Assembly (NCBI GenBank): GCA_021840255.1
Contig: JAKBYX010000005.1
Span: 1 to 64,000 of the forward strand
Reading direction: 5' to 3'
Length of the DNA stretch: 64,000 nt
Source of the DNA: Nitrospirota bacterium
GTDB lineage: Bacteria > Nitrospirota > Thermodesulfovibrionia > Thermodesulfovibrionales > JdFR-88
Positions within the stretch are counted from its first letter, which is position 1. Every line of letters starts with the position of its first letter. Below are positions 17,435 to 25,748 of the stretch, piece after piece. Both the position numbers and the translations under genes were made by a program. A model generated the notes under the pieces. It was not told where the DNA came from. It searched no databases and saw only the letters and a program-made list of their open reading frames with translations.

Positions 17435-17787
17435 AACCTTTTTAGTATAAAAAAACTGGCTGGCATACTGCCAATTCCACTTTTGCCTCTTCCCATCAAA
17501 AGACTGCCCTGATACAGAATTTTGCCTGGCCGGTATTCTCTTGTCCATGGATATTTCAGGCTAGGACTCCTCAAAGAGATTTTATATATAAATAATTTTA
17601 CTGATGTTTTTTTAAAGTTTTTCCTGTTAATTCCCGATATATAAACAAAGTCTATGAAAAATTAAGGACATTTGGCATTGCCATTCTGGCATACATAATT
17701 TCGTTAATAAATGTTTTTAGGTATAAATTTTTTTGGTATACGGGGGCCGGACATGAAAACATTAATCATCGGAAGTTATTGATCTCA

Positions 17788-20394
17788 ATGGGTATTTCCA
17801 CCTCCAAGGATGCCGTACCCCGCCTTCCGCGAAGACGGTTTTTCATACGTTCAGGCGACCCTGAAAACGGGTCTGGCCCGAAGGTCCCGGACGGCAAACC
17901 GGCGTGGATGCTGCGCATTTTGTGCGTGGCGGCCTGTGTTTGCGTCTTCCTGTATGCGGCAGATATTCATCTGACCATTCTGCAGCAGGCCGTGGTGGGC
18001 TATGGGCTGCTGGGCCTGGTGCTCGTTCTCATGCGTCTGCCTTCTGCCAAGACACAACCCATCAGGACTTTGATCCTGCTTACAGCCGCTTTTATTACAC
18101 TGCGTTATTGTTTTTTCCGGACATTTTATAGTCTCACGTATACCGGATTCCTTGCCTCCATCGCCATGCTGCTGCTTTACGGCGCTGAAATGTATTCCGC
18201 GCTTATTTATTTTTCCGGTATGTTCGTTAATCTGTGGCCCCTCAAAAGAAAAGTGGTCCAACTGCCGGAAAACCGTGCCCTCTGGCCTATTGTCGACATA
18301 TTTATTCCCACTTACAACGAACCGGAGGAAATGGTCAAAATTACCGTTTCCTCCTGCTCCCAGATGGATTACCCGGCTGACAAACTGAATATTTATATAT
18401 TGGATGACGGGGGGACCATTCAGAAACGAAACAGCCCGGATGCGGCACAGGCCCTGGCGGCAAATGAAAGGGCGTCGCGGCTCAAAAAAATTGCGCAGGA
18501 GTTGGGTGTCAATTACATAACCAGGGAGATGAACGAGCATGCCAAGGCAGGCAATCTCAATAACGCCCTTCAGCGCACCAGGCTGGCATATGCTGAAAAA
18601 ACAGCCCTTGGCGGCGAATGGCTGAACTGGGGCACTGTTTCTTCACCCGGGGACCTGGTCCTCATCCTTGACTGCGACCATGTGCCCACCATGGATTTTC
18701 TAAAGAACACGGCCGGTCTGTTCCTCAAGGATGAAAAATTGTTCCTTGTGCAGACGCCCCATTTTTTCATCAATCCAAATCCCATCGAAAAAAATCTCGG
18801 CACCCATAATGACGCGCCAAACGAAAACGAAATGTTCTACCGTGCCGTGCAGCCGGGACTGGACTTCTGGAATTCCTCTTTCTTCTGCGGTTCGGCGGCC
18901 CTGCTGCGGCGAAAGCATCTGGAGGAAGCCGGAGGGATCTCCGGAGACACCATTACCGAGGACGCTGAAACCGCGCTCTCCCTTCATGCAAAGGGATACA
19001 GGAGCGCATACCTGCTTAAACCCATGATATGCGGACTCTCCCCGGACACATTCGAGGACTTCATGATACAAAGGAGCAGGTGGACGCAGGGCATGATCCA
19101 GATACTCCTGCTGAAAAAACCTTTTTTCAAAAAAGGATTGAGCTGGTACCAGCGCCTTTGCTACACCAACAACTGCCTTTTCTGGTTTTTTGGCCTGGCC
19201 CGCTCGATCTTCATCATAGCTCCCCTGGTATATCTGTTTTTCGGGTTCGGTATATATAACGCATCGCCGGCGCAAATATTGGTGTACGCCGTGCCGCATC
19301 TGCTTTGCTCCATGGCCATAACGAACTACCTGTTCGGCGAGGTGCGATGGCCCTTTTTCTCCGAGCTGTTCGAGACCGTACAGAGCATCTTCCTTGTGGG
19401 CCCCATCATTGGCGCCATTTTGAACCCGTCAGCGCCTAAATTCAAGGTCACCCCCAAGGGCAAAAACCTGGATTCCGATTATCTGAGCCTTCTTTCCGTG
19501 CCCTTTTATATCATCCTGGTCATGACCCTGGTGGGGCTGCCCGCAGCGGCGGCGCGCTGGAGCGAATATCCCATGCAAAGGGGGGCGATAGCGGCATGTC
19601 TGGCGTGGGTCCTGTTCAACATTTTCCTTGTCATGTCATGCCTGGGCATTGTGTACGAACTGAGGCAGATAAGAAGACAGCACCGCATACTGACCACGGA
19701 GAAAGCAAAGGCCCGGATCGCTGGAGCGGATCTGGATGTCAATATCCACGACATTTCACTGGGAGGATTAAGTATCTTTCTTCACGGAGAACATCCTGTC
19801 AGAGTGAATGAACGGCTGATGGTGTCCGCGGAAGGCAATTATTCAGACCGCCCATCCATTAAAGCCAGACGGGCCGCCCTGATCAGGAAAAGGCGCGAAG
19901 CAGTGGCGGCAGAACCGGCATTTGCGGTGGCGGGAAACATACCGGGGCAGGAAACCAGCGGTATTCATGCCCGCAGATCGGGCATGGACGGCAGCCTCAC
20001 CATGGCCGGGGGACTTGCATCCGGGCCAGGGCTATGTCCTCCTGAATCCGCAGGCAGTGTCTGCAGGGTGCGGTATTCCATTCCCGTCACCGTCAAACGG
20101 GTCCAGCAAACTGACGGGGGCGTGAAACTGGGTTGCATCTTTGAGACGGACAGCGTGGAAGACGTAAGCCAAATAATCGCCTTCGTGTATGGCGATAGTT
20201 CCAGGTGGGAAAATTTCTGGCAAAACAGGAAGGACCCCAGGGCTCGCATTGCGATAGCGTTATTTTATCTTTTTTTTAAAGGGGCCAAAGGGGCCAGGCG
20301 GAACATGCAGGCCACATTGGCCGTTGTTGCAAAATATACCGGAAGAGGGATGGAGAGCTTATGGGAGAAATGGAAAAAATACGCTTTCGCTTAA
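17788..20394 (+). CDS. bcsA: Cellulose synthase catalytic subunit, PilZ type
   Basis: BcsA polymerises UDP-glucose and threads cellulose through the inner membrane. The GT2 motifs are all present: DDGG near residue 205, DCDH near 294, TEDAET near 390 and QRSRWTQG near 427. They are flanked by membrane helices. A C-terminal PilZ domain (RRQHR, then NIHDISLGG) binds c-di-GMP for activation. The PilZ domain carries an insert of about 65 residues (roughly 692-757) not seen in ordinary BcsA. The chosen ATG is at 17788, and a TTG at 17779 lies too near the GGAAG site. bcsB overlaps by 34 bases. Confidence 0.95.
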   Translation: MGISTSKDAVPRLPRRRFFIRSGDPENGSGPKVPDGKPAWMLRILCVAACVCVFLYAADIHLTILQQAVVGYGLLGLVLVLMRLPSAKTQPIRTLILLTAAFITLRYCFFRTFYSLTYTGFLASIAMLLLYGAEMYSALIYFSGMFVNLWPLKRKVVQLPENRALWPIVDIFIPTYNEPEEMVKITVSSCSQMDYPADKLNIYILDDGGTIQKRNSPDAAQALAANERASRLKKIAQELGVNYITREMNEHAKAGNLNNALQRTRLAYAEKTALGGEWLNWGTVSSPGDLVLILDCDHVPTMDFLKNTAGLFLKDEKLFLVQTPHFFINPNPIEKNLGTHNDAPNENEMFYRAVQPGLDFWNSSFFCGSAALLRRKHLEEAGGISGDTITEDAETALSLHAKGYRSAYLLKPMICGLSPDTFEDFMIQRSRWTQGMIQILLLKKPFFKKGLSWYQRLCYTNNCLFWFFGLARSIFIIAPLVYLFFGFGIYNASPAQILVYAVPHLLCSMAITNYLFGEVRWPFFSELFETVQSIFLVGPIIGAILNPSAPKFKVTPKGKNLDSDYLSLLSVPFYIILVMTLVGLPAAAARWSEYPMQRGAIAACLAWVLFNIFLVMSCLGIVYELRQIRRQHRILTTEKAKARIAGADLDVNIHDISLGGLSIFLHGEHPVRVNERLMVSAEGNYSDRPSIKARRAALIRKRREAVAAEPAFAVAGNIPGQETSGIHARRSGMDGSLTMAGGLASGPGLCPPESAGSVCRVRYSIPVTVKRVQQTDGGVKLGCIFETDSVEDVSQIIAFVYGDSSRWENFWQNRKDPRARIAIALFYLFFKGAKGARRNMQATLAVVAKYTGRGMESLWEKWKKYAFA

Positions 20395-22595
20395 AAATAA
20401 AAATATGGCCTCTGCTCGGAGCGGTAGCTCTTTTCCTTATTTTCCCGCTCCCCGTCCAGGCTGTCGAAATGAGCGTCAACTTAACCAAGCTCGCTCCCGT
20501 GGTGTCCACAAAGCTTTATGGCGCTCAGGACAGCTACACCGTTAAAATCCCAATCCCGGACCGCTGGAAGATCAACAGGGCCGTTCTGAAATTTTCATAT
20601 GTTAATTCCACGGCACTGATCAGGCAGAATTCGCGCCTGGTTGTCTGGCTCAACGAAAGGCCACTGACCCAGATAACGCTGGATTCGTCTTCCCCCGGCG
20701 GACAGGTCTCGGTCCTGCTGCCTGCGCGATTGCTGAAGCCAGGCTATGACGACCTCCGCTTCAGCGTGTCACAGCATTACACAAACAGTTGCGAGGACCC
20801 AACCGCCCCTGAACTATGGACGACCCTCGCGCTGGACAGATCGTCCATAGATTTCGACTATACACTGAAAACCGTACCGTTGTCCCTTTCAGCGGTCAAT
20901 TTCCTTTTTGACGCCCGCATATTCAGTACAGACAAGGTGAACCTGGCAGTGGAAGACCTTTCGCGGGAGGAGATCGAAGCGGCCGCTATCGCCGCCATGG
21001 GGATTTCGGTGCGGTTTGACTACCGCCCCGTACATTTCTCCCTTTCCGGGGGGCTAAAGCCGGGATGTGACAACATCGTCATAGGCGATAAAAGTTTTGT
21101 TACCCGCATAACGGGAAACAAACATTTGAATGCCAGCGGCCCGCTCATCAATATTTTCCATATGCCTGGCGACGACGCCCACGCGCTCATTACCGTGCAG
21201 GGCTCCGGCGGGCAGCAGCTTAAAAAAAGCGCACGGGCGTTTGCATCCCTGTCCTTTCCTCTTCCCGACTCCCCATCCATGAGGGTGCAGCAAGTGGCCA
21301 TAGCCCGCCTGTATCCCCTCGCCGGAAACGATGTCCTGATCCCGGGACATGAATATGCGTTCAGGGATATAGGTTTCAAGACTGCCACCTTTCAAGGGAT
21401 GGGATGCAAGCCCGGCGATATCTCCATAAAATTGCCTGACGGCATCATGCCGCAGTCAAACAGCTATGTGCGTCTCGGACTTCATCTGGCTTACGGAGGC
21501 GGCATGCGAAAAGACAGCGTGCTGAACGTATCGGTGAACGGCAAGTTCGTGTCGGCCATATATCTTGACAACCAGAGCGGGACAACGTTCGCGGATTACC
21601 GCATCGACATCCCCGCCGGTCTCTTCAGGTCCGGGAAAAACACTGTAAGGTTCACCCCCGTCCTGACGCCGATGGTTACCCACCGCTGCGAGTTTATACA
21701 GACCGGCAACCTTGTCCTGACCCTCTTTGACGATTCAACAGTGCAGATCCCCTCGATGGCCAATTGGACCGCCATGCCGCGCATCGACCTGTTCGCCATT
21801 GACGGTTTCCCTTTTACTGAGGATGCAAGCATGAAAGATACTCTTGTGTATCTTCCGGAAAAGAATTCATACGCAGCCGCGGCAGCCATCAACCTGCTTG
21901 CAATGGCCGCGCAAAAGGACGGTTTCCCGGGGTATAGCATACATCTTACTTACAGCGAGCCAAAAGGGGACGGCCGCAATGTCATAACGGTAGGCACAGT
22001 AAATACCCTGCCGGAAAAAATATTGAAAGCCATGCCGGCACAAATAGGCAAAGATGGCCTTCTCCCCTACCCGCTCATTAAAGATTATTCCGGCGAAAAG
22101 ACCATTCTTAGCGCGCGCCTGGATGCCATAATAGGCAAGGTCCTTCCCCCCCCGGTCAAAAACCGGCCGGTGTTGCCCGATATCAGGGCGCTGGTCCGCG
22201 AAATGAGCGAACCCGGAGGGCAATGGGTGTTCCTTGCGGAATTCGAATCTCCGTATAAGAGCGGAAGATCGGTCCTTCTGCTAACCGCTATTTCCAGCCC
22301 GGCCCTTTATAACGGCTCAGATGCTCTGCTGGAACCTTCTGTACAGGGCCGCTGCACCGGGGGACTTGTGGTATTAGACCCTTCCTCTCCGGAAAAGAGC
22401 ATAGTGGGCCTCGATACCGGAGAGACCTACTATGTGGGCGGCCTGGGCCTGTTCCCCCGCCTGAACGCCCTCATTTACGAACATGACGTGCTCTTCTTTT
22501 TATTGCTTTTAGGAAGCTTTGGCGTGCTGACCCGTTTTGCTTATCTGAAACTGAAGGCCATGAGGGCCCAAAGAGACAGCGATGAAGAAGCTTAG
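20361..22595 (+). CDS. bcsB: Cellulose synthase periplasmic subunit BcsB
   Basis: BcsB is the periplasmic, membrane-anchored partner that carries the nascent cellulose chain away from BcsA. The 744-residue protein has a signal/anchor (about 12-34). It then has carbohydrate-binding and flavodoxin-like repeats (YTVKIPIPDRWKI; CEDPTAPELWTTL; CEFIQTGNLVLTLFDDS) and one C-terminal membrane helix near 715-735. The start overlaps bcsA, and the end overlaps bcsZ by 14 bases, so the three are coupled. Confidence 0.94.
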   Translation: MGEMEKIRFRLKIKIWPLLGAVALFLIFPLPVQAVEMSVNLTKLAPVVSTKLYGAQDSYTVKIPIPDRWKINRAVLKFSYVNSTALIRQNSRLVVWLNERPLTQITLDSSSPGGQVSVLLPARLLKPGYDDLRFSVSQHYTNSCEDPTAPELWTTLALDRSSIDFDYTLKTVPLSLSAVNFLFDARIFSTDKVNLAVEDLSREEIEAAAIAAMGISVRFDYRPVHFSLSGGLKPGCDNIVIGDKSFVTRITGNKHLNASGPLINIFHMPGDDAHALITVQGSGGQQLKKSARAFASLSFPLPDSPSMRVQQVAIARLYPLAGNDVLIPGHEYAFRDIGFKTATFQGMGCKPGDISIKLPDGIMPQSNSYVRLGLHLAYGGGMRKDSVLNVSVNGKFVSAIYLDNQSGTTFADYRIDIPAGLFRSGKNTVRFTPVLTPMVTHRCEFIQTGNLVLTLFDDSTVQIPSMANWTAMPRIDLFAIDGFPFTEDASMKDTLVYLPEKNSYAAAAAINLLAMAAQKDGFPGYSIHLTYSEPKGDGRNVITVGTVNTLPEKILKAMPAQIGKDGLLPYPLIKDYSGEKTILSARLDAIIGKVLPPPVKNRPVLPDIRALVREMSEPGGQWVFLAEFESPYKSGRSVLLLTAISSPALYNGSDALLEPSVQGRCTGGLVVLDPSSPEKSIVGLDTGETYYVGGLGLFPRLNALIYEHDVLFFLLLLGSFGVLTRFAYLKLKAMRAQRDSDEEA

Positions 22596-23622
22596 TTTTT
22601 TCCTCCTGGCAGTGGCCGCCCTTTCATTATGGAGCCGCGCAGAAGCCAAGGCGCCTCAAAAAGAATGGGATGCCTATAAGGCGCAATTCATTTCGGCGGA
22701 CGGAAGGAATATTGACCGGCAGCAGGGGAAAACAAGCACCTCTGAAGGCCAGGGATACGCCATGCTCCTGGCGGAGGGTTTTGACGATTATCCGGCCTTC
22801 CAAAAGATATGGCGGTGGACAAAGAACAACCTCCAGGTCAGAAAGAATGACCGCCTTTTTGCATGGGAATGGGGGAAGCGGCCCGATGGGCAATGGGCCG
22901 CGATCGATCTTAACAACGCCACCGACGGTGACACCCTCATCGCATATGCTCTCGTGCTGGCCGGAAGGAAGTGGCGCAATGCCTCCTACGCTTCTGCCGG
23001 ACGCGCGATCGCCGCTGATATCAGAAAGCATCTTGTCATAGAACGAAACGGAATGCTCCTGGTGCTGCCGGGTTGTTACGGTTTTTCATCCAATGACGCC
23101 CTGGTCATGAATCCGTCATATTTCATATGGCCTGCGTACCGGATCTTCGGAGAAGTTGACAATAAACAGTTCTGGAGCAGGGTCTACAGAGACAGCATGA
23201 AGCTTCTAGGCAAGGCGCGCTTTACTGTTTTCGGATTGCCCCCTGACTGGATGACGGTAAACCGGGTCGGCGCCCCGCTGCCCACCGGGAAAAGGAGTGT
23301 GTACGGTTACGGCGCCATAAGGGTCCTGCTTTACCTTGCGTGGGAAAAGGACAAAACCGGTCTTTCACCCTTCAAAAAATTTATCGGCCTGTACAAATGC
23401 CTTGGGTTCATCCCCAGGGAAGTGGACCTGGAAAATAACACTTTTTCAATGGATGATGCGCCGGCCGGGTTTTACGCAGTATATGCCAGGGCGGCCCGGC
23501 AGTTGGGAGAACCGGGACTGGGAAGGATTCTCGAGCAAAAGGCGGCTCAAAAACTCAAGCTGGAGAGCGGCAGCTATTACTCGAATTCCCTTTATCTGCT
23601 GTCGCTTATGGAATGGAAATAA
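22582..23622 (+). CDS. bcsZ: Periplasmic endoglucanase, GH8 family
   Basis: BcsZ is a periplasmic endo-1,4-beta-glucanase needed for normal cellulose export. The 346-residue protein has a signal peptide (cleavage near ARAEA-KA). The GH8 acid is in STSEGQGYAMLLA near residue 55. The second catalytic region is ATDGDTLIAYALVLAGRKW near 115. Length and motifs are normal. It is coupled to bcsB by a 14-base overlap. Confidence 0.94.
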   Translation: MKKLSFFLLAVAALSLWSRAEAKAPQKEWDAYKAQFISADGRNIDRQQGKTSTSEGQGYAMLLAEGFDDYPAFQKIWRWTKNNLQVRKNDRLFAWEWGKRPDGQWAAIDLNNATDGDTLIAYALVLAGRKWRNASYASAGRAIAADIRKHLVIERNGMLLVLPGCYGFSSNDALVMNPSYFIWPAYRIFGEVDNKQFWSRVYRDSMKLLGKARFTVFGLPPDWMTVNRVGAPLPTGKRSVYGYGAIRVLLYLAWEKDKTGLSPFKKFIGLYKCLGFIPREVDLENNTFSMDDAPAGFYAVYARAARQLGEPGLGRILEQKAAQKLKLESGSYYSNSLYLLSLMEWK

Positions 23623-23719: not shown

Positions 23720-24172
23720 ATGTTTTCAAGGAAGTTGTTAGCGGCTGTTTTTGTCCTTTGCCTGGGGTTTGCGGCCCCGGCTTTAGCTATTGACAGTTAT
23801 CCCGGCTCAACCTGGGGGGAGTTGCTGTGGCAGGTGCCCGCACATGGCCCTCAGCCTAACATCCCGGACCTGCTTACGGACGGATGGATAAGGCAGGGTG
23901 CGGACGTGGCCCATTTGGACGGTGTGCACCTGGTGCCGTATATGACCCTGCGATGGACGGCGGACACCAAAGGGCTTTCCTGGAACAACACTATAGGACC
24001 GGGCATCGGCCTGTCACTGCTCACCACGCCAATAAAACAGTCTTCGGTGACGATCGGGATCGAAAACGTCTGGAATTATTACGACAGGGACTGGGGTTAC
24101 AACGCATCAAGAATAACCGATACCGTGAACGTATACATGGACTGGTACGGTTGGTGGGACTTGAAAAAATAA
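23720..24172 (+). CDS. Exported protein of unknown function in the cellulose operon
   Basis: This 150-residue protein has a clear signal peptide (residues 1-23, ending APALA-ID) and a strong AAGGAGG ribosome binding site. The mature part is rich in Trp, Tyr and Gly and alternates polar and hydrophobic residues (TLRWTADTKGLSWNNTIGPG; NYYDRDWGYNASR), suggesting a small beta structure in the periplasm or outer membrane. It lies between bcsZ and bcsG, where an outer-membrane export protein would be expected, but it is far too short to be BcsC. A distant likeness to the C-terminal part of NfrA-type proteins is possible. I do not recognise it firmly. Confidence 0.75.
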   Translation: MFSRKLLAAVFVLCLGFAAPALAIDSYPGSTWGELLWQVPAHGPQPNIPDLLTDGWIRQGADVAHLDGVHLVPYMTLRWTADTKGLSWNNTIGPGIGLSLLTTPIKQSSVTIGIENVWNYYDRDWGYNASRITDTVNVYMDWYGWWDLKK

Positions 24173-24206: not shown

Positions 24207-25748
24207 ATGCAGTTCTTGAGTTTTTATTTTCTGGGAACACTTTTCCTTTCTTTCATGGGTTCGATCAAGTTTGATTTCATAAAGAACATTATTTTTGGCG
24301 GTTTCCTCGCTCTGCCCATTCCGGAGAGAGTCCCGGCATCCAGGGTATTGAAATATCTACGGGTTGCCATCGGCATCCCGCTGGGCTTCCTGCTTTTCTG
24401 GCACGAAACATGGTTTCCGCCCCTGGGTTATGCGTTCCATTCCCTTACGGGCGCAAACGCAATGTCCGCGGGCTATATGTTCCAGTTTGTATTTCAGAAT
24501 CTTAACCCCATAGACATCGGCGGGCTTATCCTCCTTTTCATCCTTTGCCATTTTGCCTCAAAGCGCTTAAACATGGCCATCCCGGTGATTATTTTGATGG
24601 TTGCCATCATGCCTTTCCGGGCATGCGGGGTAAAGCAGGCGGCAGCCGCACAGGCCCCGCCGGCCAACGGCACGCCGCAGGGTTATTTTGAAGCGTTCCA
24701 CAGGTCCGAGGCCAAACGCATTGTCAGGTTTGAAAAACCCAGGAAGGGAGCGCCGCCTTTCGATATCATTGTCCTTCACATATGATCCCTCTCATGGGAA
24801 GACCTCTCGGTCGAGGGGTTAAAGAATGATCCGTTCTGGAAACAGTTCAACATGCTTTTTACGGATTTCAATACCGCCACGGGCTATAGCGGCCCCGCGG
24901 CCATAAGGGTCCTCAGGTCCACCTGCGGCCAGGAAAAACACGGGGACCTTTACAACCCGGCGCCGGATGGCTGTTACCTGTTCGAGAGCCTTAGAAAAAA
25001 CGGCTATCAGGCATTCACCGCGCTCAACCATGACGGCGTTTACGGTGACTTTTCCAAAGAGATCGTGACACTGGGAAAGGCGGCGCCGCCCATGGGCGAT
25101 CAGGGCCTGTCCCCCAGGCAGCTCGATTTCGATAAATCCCCGGTCTATGACGACCTCCAGGTGCTGGACAAGTGGCTTGCCGTGCGCAACAAATCAGGGG
25201 CCGCGCGGGCGGCCCTTTATTATGATACGGTCACGCTTCACGCGGGGGCGCACTTCGTGGGTGAAAAATTCTGGTGGCTCAAATCACGCAAGACTCATTA
25301 CAAGGAGTGCCTCGTAGGCATGATGCAAGAGCTCGATCAGTTCTTTGGGCAACTGGCCGCCTCCCGGCGCAATTACGTTGTCATCTTTGTGCCTGAGCAC
25401 GGGGCCGCCCTTGTTGCAAAAAGCATCCAGCCGGCCGATCTGAGGGAAATCCCTTTGCCGTCCATCACGCTGGATCCCGTGGGAATAAAGTTCATCGGCC
25501 CCGCATTTTCCCATGTCCCGCCAGGACAGCGGATAATATCCAAACCCACCAGCTATACGGCCTTTACATATGTAATATCGGAGCTGTTAAAAAATGTCCC
25601 GGTCTCCAAAATTGACCTTAAAAACATACCTGAAACCCCTTATGTGTCCGAGGGCCAGAATAACAAGATAGTTCAAATGGGAAACAGCTATTATTTGAAG
25701 GAAAAAGGTAAAAGCTGGGTAAAACTGCCGGAGGAGGATGTAAAGTAA
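24207..25748 (+). CDS. bcsG: Cellulose phosphoethanolamine transferase, probable selenoprotein
   Basis: BcsG transfers phosphoethanolamine from phospholipid to cellulose in the periplasm. The N-terminal 150 residues hold four or five membrane helices. The frame is broken by one TGA at 24783-24785, in the context VLHI-TGA-SLSWEDL. E. coli BcsG reads NIC-SLSW there, so the TGA replaces the zinc-binding cysteine (C243). Homology continues in the same frame across the 22 codons before the next ATG. The nucleophile serine is kept in TGYSGPAAIR (S228), and the zinc ligands in VPEHGAAL (E397, H398). Read with selenocysteine at residue 193 the protein is 513 residues, normal for the family. A SECIS-like hairpin follows the TGA. 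GAGGAGG precedes the ATG. A nonsense mutation is the alternative. Confidence 0.85.
24801..24820 (+). promoter_or_regulatory. Candidate bacterial SECIS hairpin in bcsG
   Basis: The RNA from 24801 to 24820 folds into a stem of eight pairs (two G-U wobbles among them) closed by the four-base loop GGUC at 24809-24812. The loop begins 23 bases after the TGA. Bacterial SECIS elements usually have the apical loop 16-37 bases after UGA and a G in the first two loop bases; both hold. The E. coli fdhF element likewise shows GGUC(U) in its loop. A competing pairing of 24786-24791 with 24813-24818 is possible. Confidence 0.7.

Follow-up and report, generated by a model that had tools for sequence, protein, structure and literature searches.

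The window analysed here is a stretch of 64,000 nucleotides (64 kb) from the draft genome of an uncultured Nitrospirota bacterium. It contains a cellulose synthase cluster in which a bcsG gene directly follows bcsA, bcsB and a gene for a GH8 endoglucanase. The bcsG frame has one internal stop, a TGA at codon 193, and terminates with TAA. The genes of the cluster, and the elements of bcsG referred to below, are as follows.

17779-20394, + strand: bcsA-like cellulose synthase gene (glycosyltransferase 2 and PilZ; Pfam)
20361-22595, + strand: bcsB (Pfam PF03170, 3.1e-99)
22582-23622, + strand: bcsZ-like GH8 endoglucanase gene (Pfam PF01270, 5.3e-69)
23720-24172, + strand: gene for a small predicted secreted protein of the bcs cluster, just before bcsG (no Pfam or NCBIfam match)
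24207-25748, + strand: bcsG, predicted selenocysteine-containing cellulose phosphoethanolamine transferase (513 codons, one TGA read through)
24783-24785, + strand: in-frame TGA, codon 193, predicted selenocysteine, equivalent to the zinc ligand Cys243 of E. coli BcsG
24786-24851, + strand: 22-codon stretch separating the TGA from the next in-frame start; its protein sequence is conserved and can be translated only by read-through
24801-24820, + strand: predicted bacterial SECIS hairpin GACCUCUC-GGUC-GAGGGGUU, apical loop at 24809-24812, 23 nt after the TGA
24888-24890, + strand: codon for Ser228, the nucleophile (E. coli Ser278), from alignment
25395-25400, + strand: codons for Glu397-His398, zinc ligands (E. 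coli Glu442-His443), from alignment

Read through the TGA, the bcsG product matches the Pfam family CBP_BcsG (PF11658) over model positions 2-516 of 516 (4.8e-129; 431.6 bits, cut-off 24.8), and also passes the NCBIfam equivalog model for BcsG, TIGR03368 (427.7 bits, cut-off 410.2). The parts before and after the TGA both match CBP_BcsG when searched singly (2.2e-23 and 2.3e-96, respectively). The next in-frame ATG, GTG or TTG is found at 24852, 23 codons beyond the TGA. A first-pass annotation made from the sequence alone had described a single in-frame TGA in an otherwise intact bcsG, followed by 22 codons before the next possible start, and both descriptions hold. An AlphaFold model of BcsG built on a 5-sequence alignment was too poor for use (mean pLDDT 48).

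Longer genes with similar "PGSTWG" units adjoin bcsG in other Nitrospirota (L030, 259-1062; L021, 595-1467; L080, 3207-4529). This suggests that the "PGSTWG" proteins, together with the small protein encoded at 23720-24172, constitute an undescribed family of cellulose-cluster proteins.

The TGA codon and the active site of BcsG

BcsG is a class VI phosphoethanolamine transferase (E. coli, 6PCZ; Salmonella, 5OLT). In the enzymes of these two organisms the zinc is held by Cys243, Glu442 and His443, with Ser278 as the predicted nucleophile, and alanine at any of these four positions abolishes the phenotype in E. coli (PMC10525099). Alignment to E. coli BcsG (PDB chain 9b8v_B) pairs codon 193 with residue 243 and Ser228 with residue 278; Glu397 and His398, which lie within a conserved PEHG motif, correspond to the remaining zinc ligands, and the histidine and arginine equivalent to E. 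coli His396 and Arg458 are kept as well. The alignment thus agrees with the first-pass placement of the TGA exactly at the C243 zinc-ligand position and with its assignment of S228, E397 and H398 as retained residues. The window gene resembles known bcsG genes in its full-length homology, its location in a bcs cluster, its catalytic serine and its Glu-His zinc ligands, but differs from those of E. coli and Salmonella in that the codon for Cys243 is a TGA with a SECIS-model hairpin behind it. Selenocysteine at position 193 would be a chemical analogue of the cysteine zinc ligand.

A TGA in place of this cysteine codon is found in one other species, which belongs to the same genus (L045/L019; public record JAJYIR010000032.1, "Nitrospirae bacterium isolate DBS2-1.bin129"). 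The bcsG gene of this sister species carries its TGA at the same codon and has no other stop, so that both a homologue with TGA at this position and the lack of further disabling mutations in a close relative, two points on which the first-pass reading turned, speak in its favour.

A SECIS-like hairpin downstream of the TGA

The bacterial SECIS model used here (PMC13188914) specifies a loop of 3-9 nt with G among the first two nucleotides, a stem of 4-16 bp, a spacing of 16-37 nt and a minimum free energy of -7.5 or lower. The hairpin in the window bcsG, which the first-pass annotation did not mention, lies within all four limits, with a GGUC loop, a stem of 8 bp, a spacing of 23 nt and a free energy of -10.3 kcal/mol. 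Its 20 nt are identical in the sister species, and the two genes share the GGUC loop, a stem of 8-9 bp and the 23 nt spacing (-10.3 and -11.3 kcal/mol). Among codons of the window genes, the chance pass rate for the model is about 4.8%, and of the 13 cysteine-encoding homologues one satisfies it, marginally; a GGUC loop on a stem of at least 6 pairs at the right distance is present at 0.17% of positions. Taken alone, the first 50 nt counted from the TGA do not have an unusual minimum free energy (z -1.15). The case for a SECIS element is therefore built on agreement with the model constraints, conservation of the loop and comparison with cysteine homologues. Silent-site conservation of the hairpin is not significant, a run of 7 identical codons being seen in about 10% of such segments. 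The sister species further possesses an FdhA-like gene whose U-H-x-P motif contains a TGA; the hairpin behind this TGA has the loop GGUCU. This gene is independent evidence that the genus decodes UGA as selenocysteine with this type of loop.

Selenocysteine machinery

Genes for selA, selB and selD were detected in the window genome at 593.5, 364 and 354.2 bits, respectively, all above curated cut-offs. The selD gene itself contains an in-frame TGA near its N-terminus, at the site where known selenocysteine-containing SelD proteins carry this residue. The sister species also has a selB gene, as do nearly all genomes of the family. The tRNA-Sec was not found in the draft assembly of either TGA species by the Rfam model, by BLAST with the tRNA-Sec of a congener or by a custom covariance model, the covariance-model searches having scored only the top candidates from an initial pass, such that a very divergent tRNA-Sec could be missed. 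Of the genes to which the first-pass annotation had tied its reading, selA, selB and a TGA-containing selD are thus in place, while selC (tRNA-Sec) is not in the assembly. An Rfam match over the cut-off in genome G000 was rejected as tRNA-Sec, as it corresponds to tRNA-Ser.

Elsewhere in the genus and family, tRNA-Sec is present in near-identical copies, and in several family genomes selC adjoins recombinase or transposase genes or lies near contig ends, where draft assemblies often break. A third genome (G236) has selB and lacks a complete tRNA-Sec in its assembly; 29 of its bases match the 3' end of tRNA-Sec exactly (L069, G236:C27:8649-8677) and are perhaps the remnant of an integration site. 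Given the 76% completeness of the window assembly, the proximity of selC to mobile genes and contig ends, and the case of G236 with selB and a partial match, the absence of tRNA-Sec from both TGA assemblies is likely an assembly gap. It is the weakest link in the case for a selenoprotein.

Also observed were long-armed tRNA-Cys genes resembling the selC* type (L058, L063, L064, L062 near 1501-1600), which have a GCA anticodon and are scored by the tRNA-Sec model; three of them come from the taxonomic family to which the window genome belongs. Transfer RNAs of the selC* type have been reported from Nitrospirae, and some in other groups bear a UCA anticodon (PMC7609411). The main rival to selenocysteine is accordingly a suppressor such as a tRNA-Cys of the selC* type, which would read UGA as cysteine or some other amino acid and yield an ordinary cysteine-containing BcsG. 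The occurrence of such tRNA-Cys genes in relatives (L058, L063 and L064) lends it some substance, as does the failure to find tRNA-Sec in either TGA-species assembly. However, the anticodon of the selC*-like tRNAs encountered here is GCA, which reads cysteine codons rather than UGA, none of these tRNAs was found in either TGA species, and the SECIS-model hairpin with its fdhA-type loop, along with selA, selB and selD, points to selenocysteine. We therefore regard decoding by a suppressor as improbable.

Conservation and selection across the TGA

The two TGA-bearing BcsG proteins are 84% identical, at a synonymous divergence of 0.5-0.65 between their genes. The dN/dS ratio is 0.159 before the TGA and 0.157 after it, and falls to 0.044 in the 22-codon stretch that follows the TGA, where 21 of the 22 residues are identical between the species. 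These values bear on the possibility that bcsG has been split into a membrane protein that stops at the TGA and a catalytic protein with its own start at ATG 24852. Open frames do exist on both sides of the TGA, but the 22 codons between TGA and ATG contain no ATG, GTG or TTG in either species and are nonetheless the most constrained stretch of the gene (dN/dS 0.04), and a second product beginning at 24852 would lack residue 193, the zinc ligand, as well as the first part of the catalytic domain. A split gene is thus very unlikely.

Even less credit can be given to a pseudogene or a sequencing error, in which the TGA would be a disabling mutation in a dying gene or a base-calling mistake in an intact cysteine-encoding one. 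Single nonsense codons are common in draft genomes, and TGC or TGT is one base away from TGA; yet the same TGA, with no other stop, is present in an independently assembled genome of another species, and at this silent divergence dN/dS is about 0.16 on both sides of it. Neutral decay simulated over that divergence (n=2000) gave a mean of 21 extra stops in the two copies, and never zero. Global reassignment of TGA was rejected, since TGA serves as an ordinary stop in 11 of 35 long frames of the window.

BcsG was detected in 16 of 396 sampled genomes of the phylum, with an internal stop only in the window genome and the sister species, one TGA in each; no further TGA-containing BcsG was found among the 396 phylum, 12 family and 176 order genomes. 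All 13 other Nitrospirota BcsG proteins that cover the column have cysteine there, as does that of E. coli. In a BcsG tree the two TGA proteins form one clade within cysteine-bearing relatives, and a single cysteine-to-selenocysteine change in this genus would therefore be the simplest history. Three cysteine-type BcsG proteins (L028, L030, L031) from the clade that is sister to the two TGA proteins have threonine at the position of the nucleophilic serine, as in EptA/MCR-type enzymes.

A probable selenocysteine form of BcsG

It is highly probable that bcsG is an intact selenoprotein gene encoding a form of BcsG with selenocysteine as zinc ligand, as the first-pass annotation had proposed. The intact frame, the TGA conserved in the sister species, the purifying selection across it, the lack of further lesions, the SECIS-model hairpin and the presence of selA, selB and selD all support this reading, from which we infer selenocysteine insertion, a zinc-selenolate bond and transferase activity; the tRNA-Sec gene was not found in the assembly. 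SelB, docked on the hairpin that lies 23 nt behind the UGA, would deliver Sec-tRNA-Sec, and UGA 193 would be read as selenocysteine. The predicted product is a 513-residue membrane-anchored BcsG, whose periplasmic domain would hold the catalytic zinc by Sec193 in place of cysteine, with Ser228, Glu397 and His398, and would move phosphoethanolamine onto cellulose made by the products of the neighbouring bcsA and bcsB genes. Besides the missing tRNA-Sec, two points weigh against a selenoprotein: the TGA occurs in only two species, and zinc ligand in a transferase is an unusual role for selenocysteine, which in most known cases is redox-active.

The reading probably extends to a zinc-selenolate catalytic centre in a phosphoethanolamine transferase that is no redox enzyme and belongs to the alkaline phosphatase superfamily; such a centre would stand outside the thioredoxin-like and the Mo/W/Ni selenoenzymes. 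Selenocysteine-containing formate dehydrogenase alpha subunits (FdhA) are alike in using selenocysteine as a metal ligand and, in the sister species, in the GGUC of the fdhA hairpin loop; FdhA, however, is a Mo/W redox enzyme, whereas BcsG is a zinc-dependent group transferase. In [NiFeSe] hydrogenases, selenocysteine likewise replaces a metal-coordinating cysteine of the catalytic centre, but the chemistry is that of nickel redox. The NiFe hydrogenase encoded in the 64-kb window retains cysteine (DPCFSC). From general selenium chemistry, a lower pKa, a softer metal ligand and easier repair after periplasmic oxidation are possible advantages of selenocysteine in BcsG.

The prokaryotic selenoproteins listed so far are mostly redox enzymes or similar to them. 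A 2026 inventory of 119 prokaryotic selenoprotein families and subfamilies does not include BcsG, nor does it name a phosphoethanolamine transferase, a sulfatase or a phosphatase (PMC13188914, Table 1). Literature searches combining selenocysteine with BcsG, and selenoprotein with phosphoethanolamine transferase, retrieved no report within their incomplete full-text coverage. Because a second species has the same arrangement, the gene appears not to be broken but to encode a new type of selenium enzyme. Annotation pipelines that take the TGA for a stop would describe it as split or broken. If the reading is true, a zinc-bound selenolate in a phosphoryl-group transferase would extend the range of uses of selenocysteine, and BcsG would provide, inside a single enzyme family, a clean cysteine/selenocysteine pair with which to test the benefit of selenium at a zinc site.
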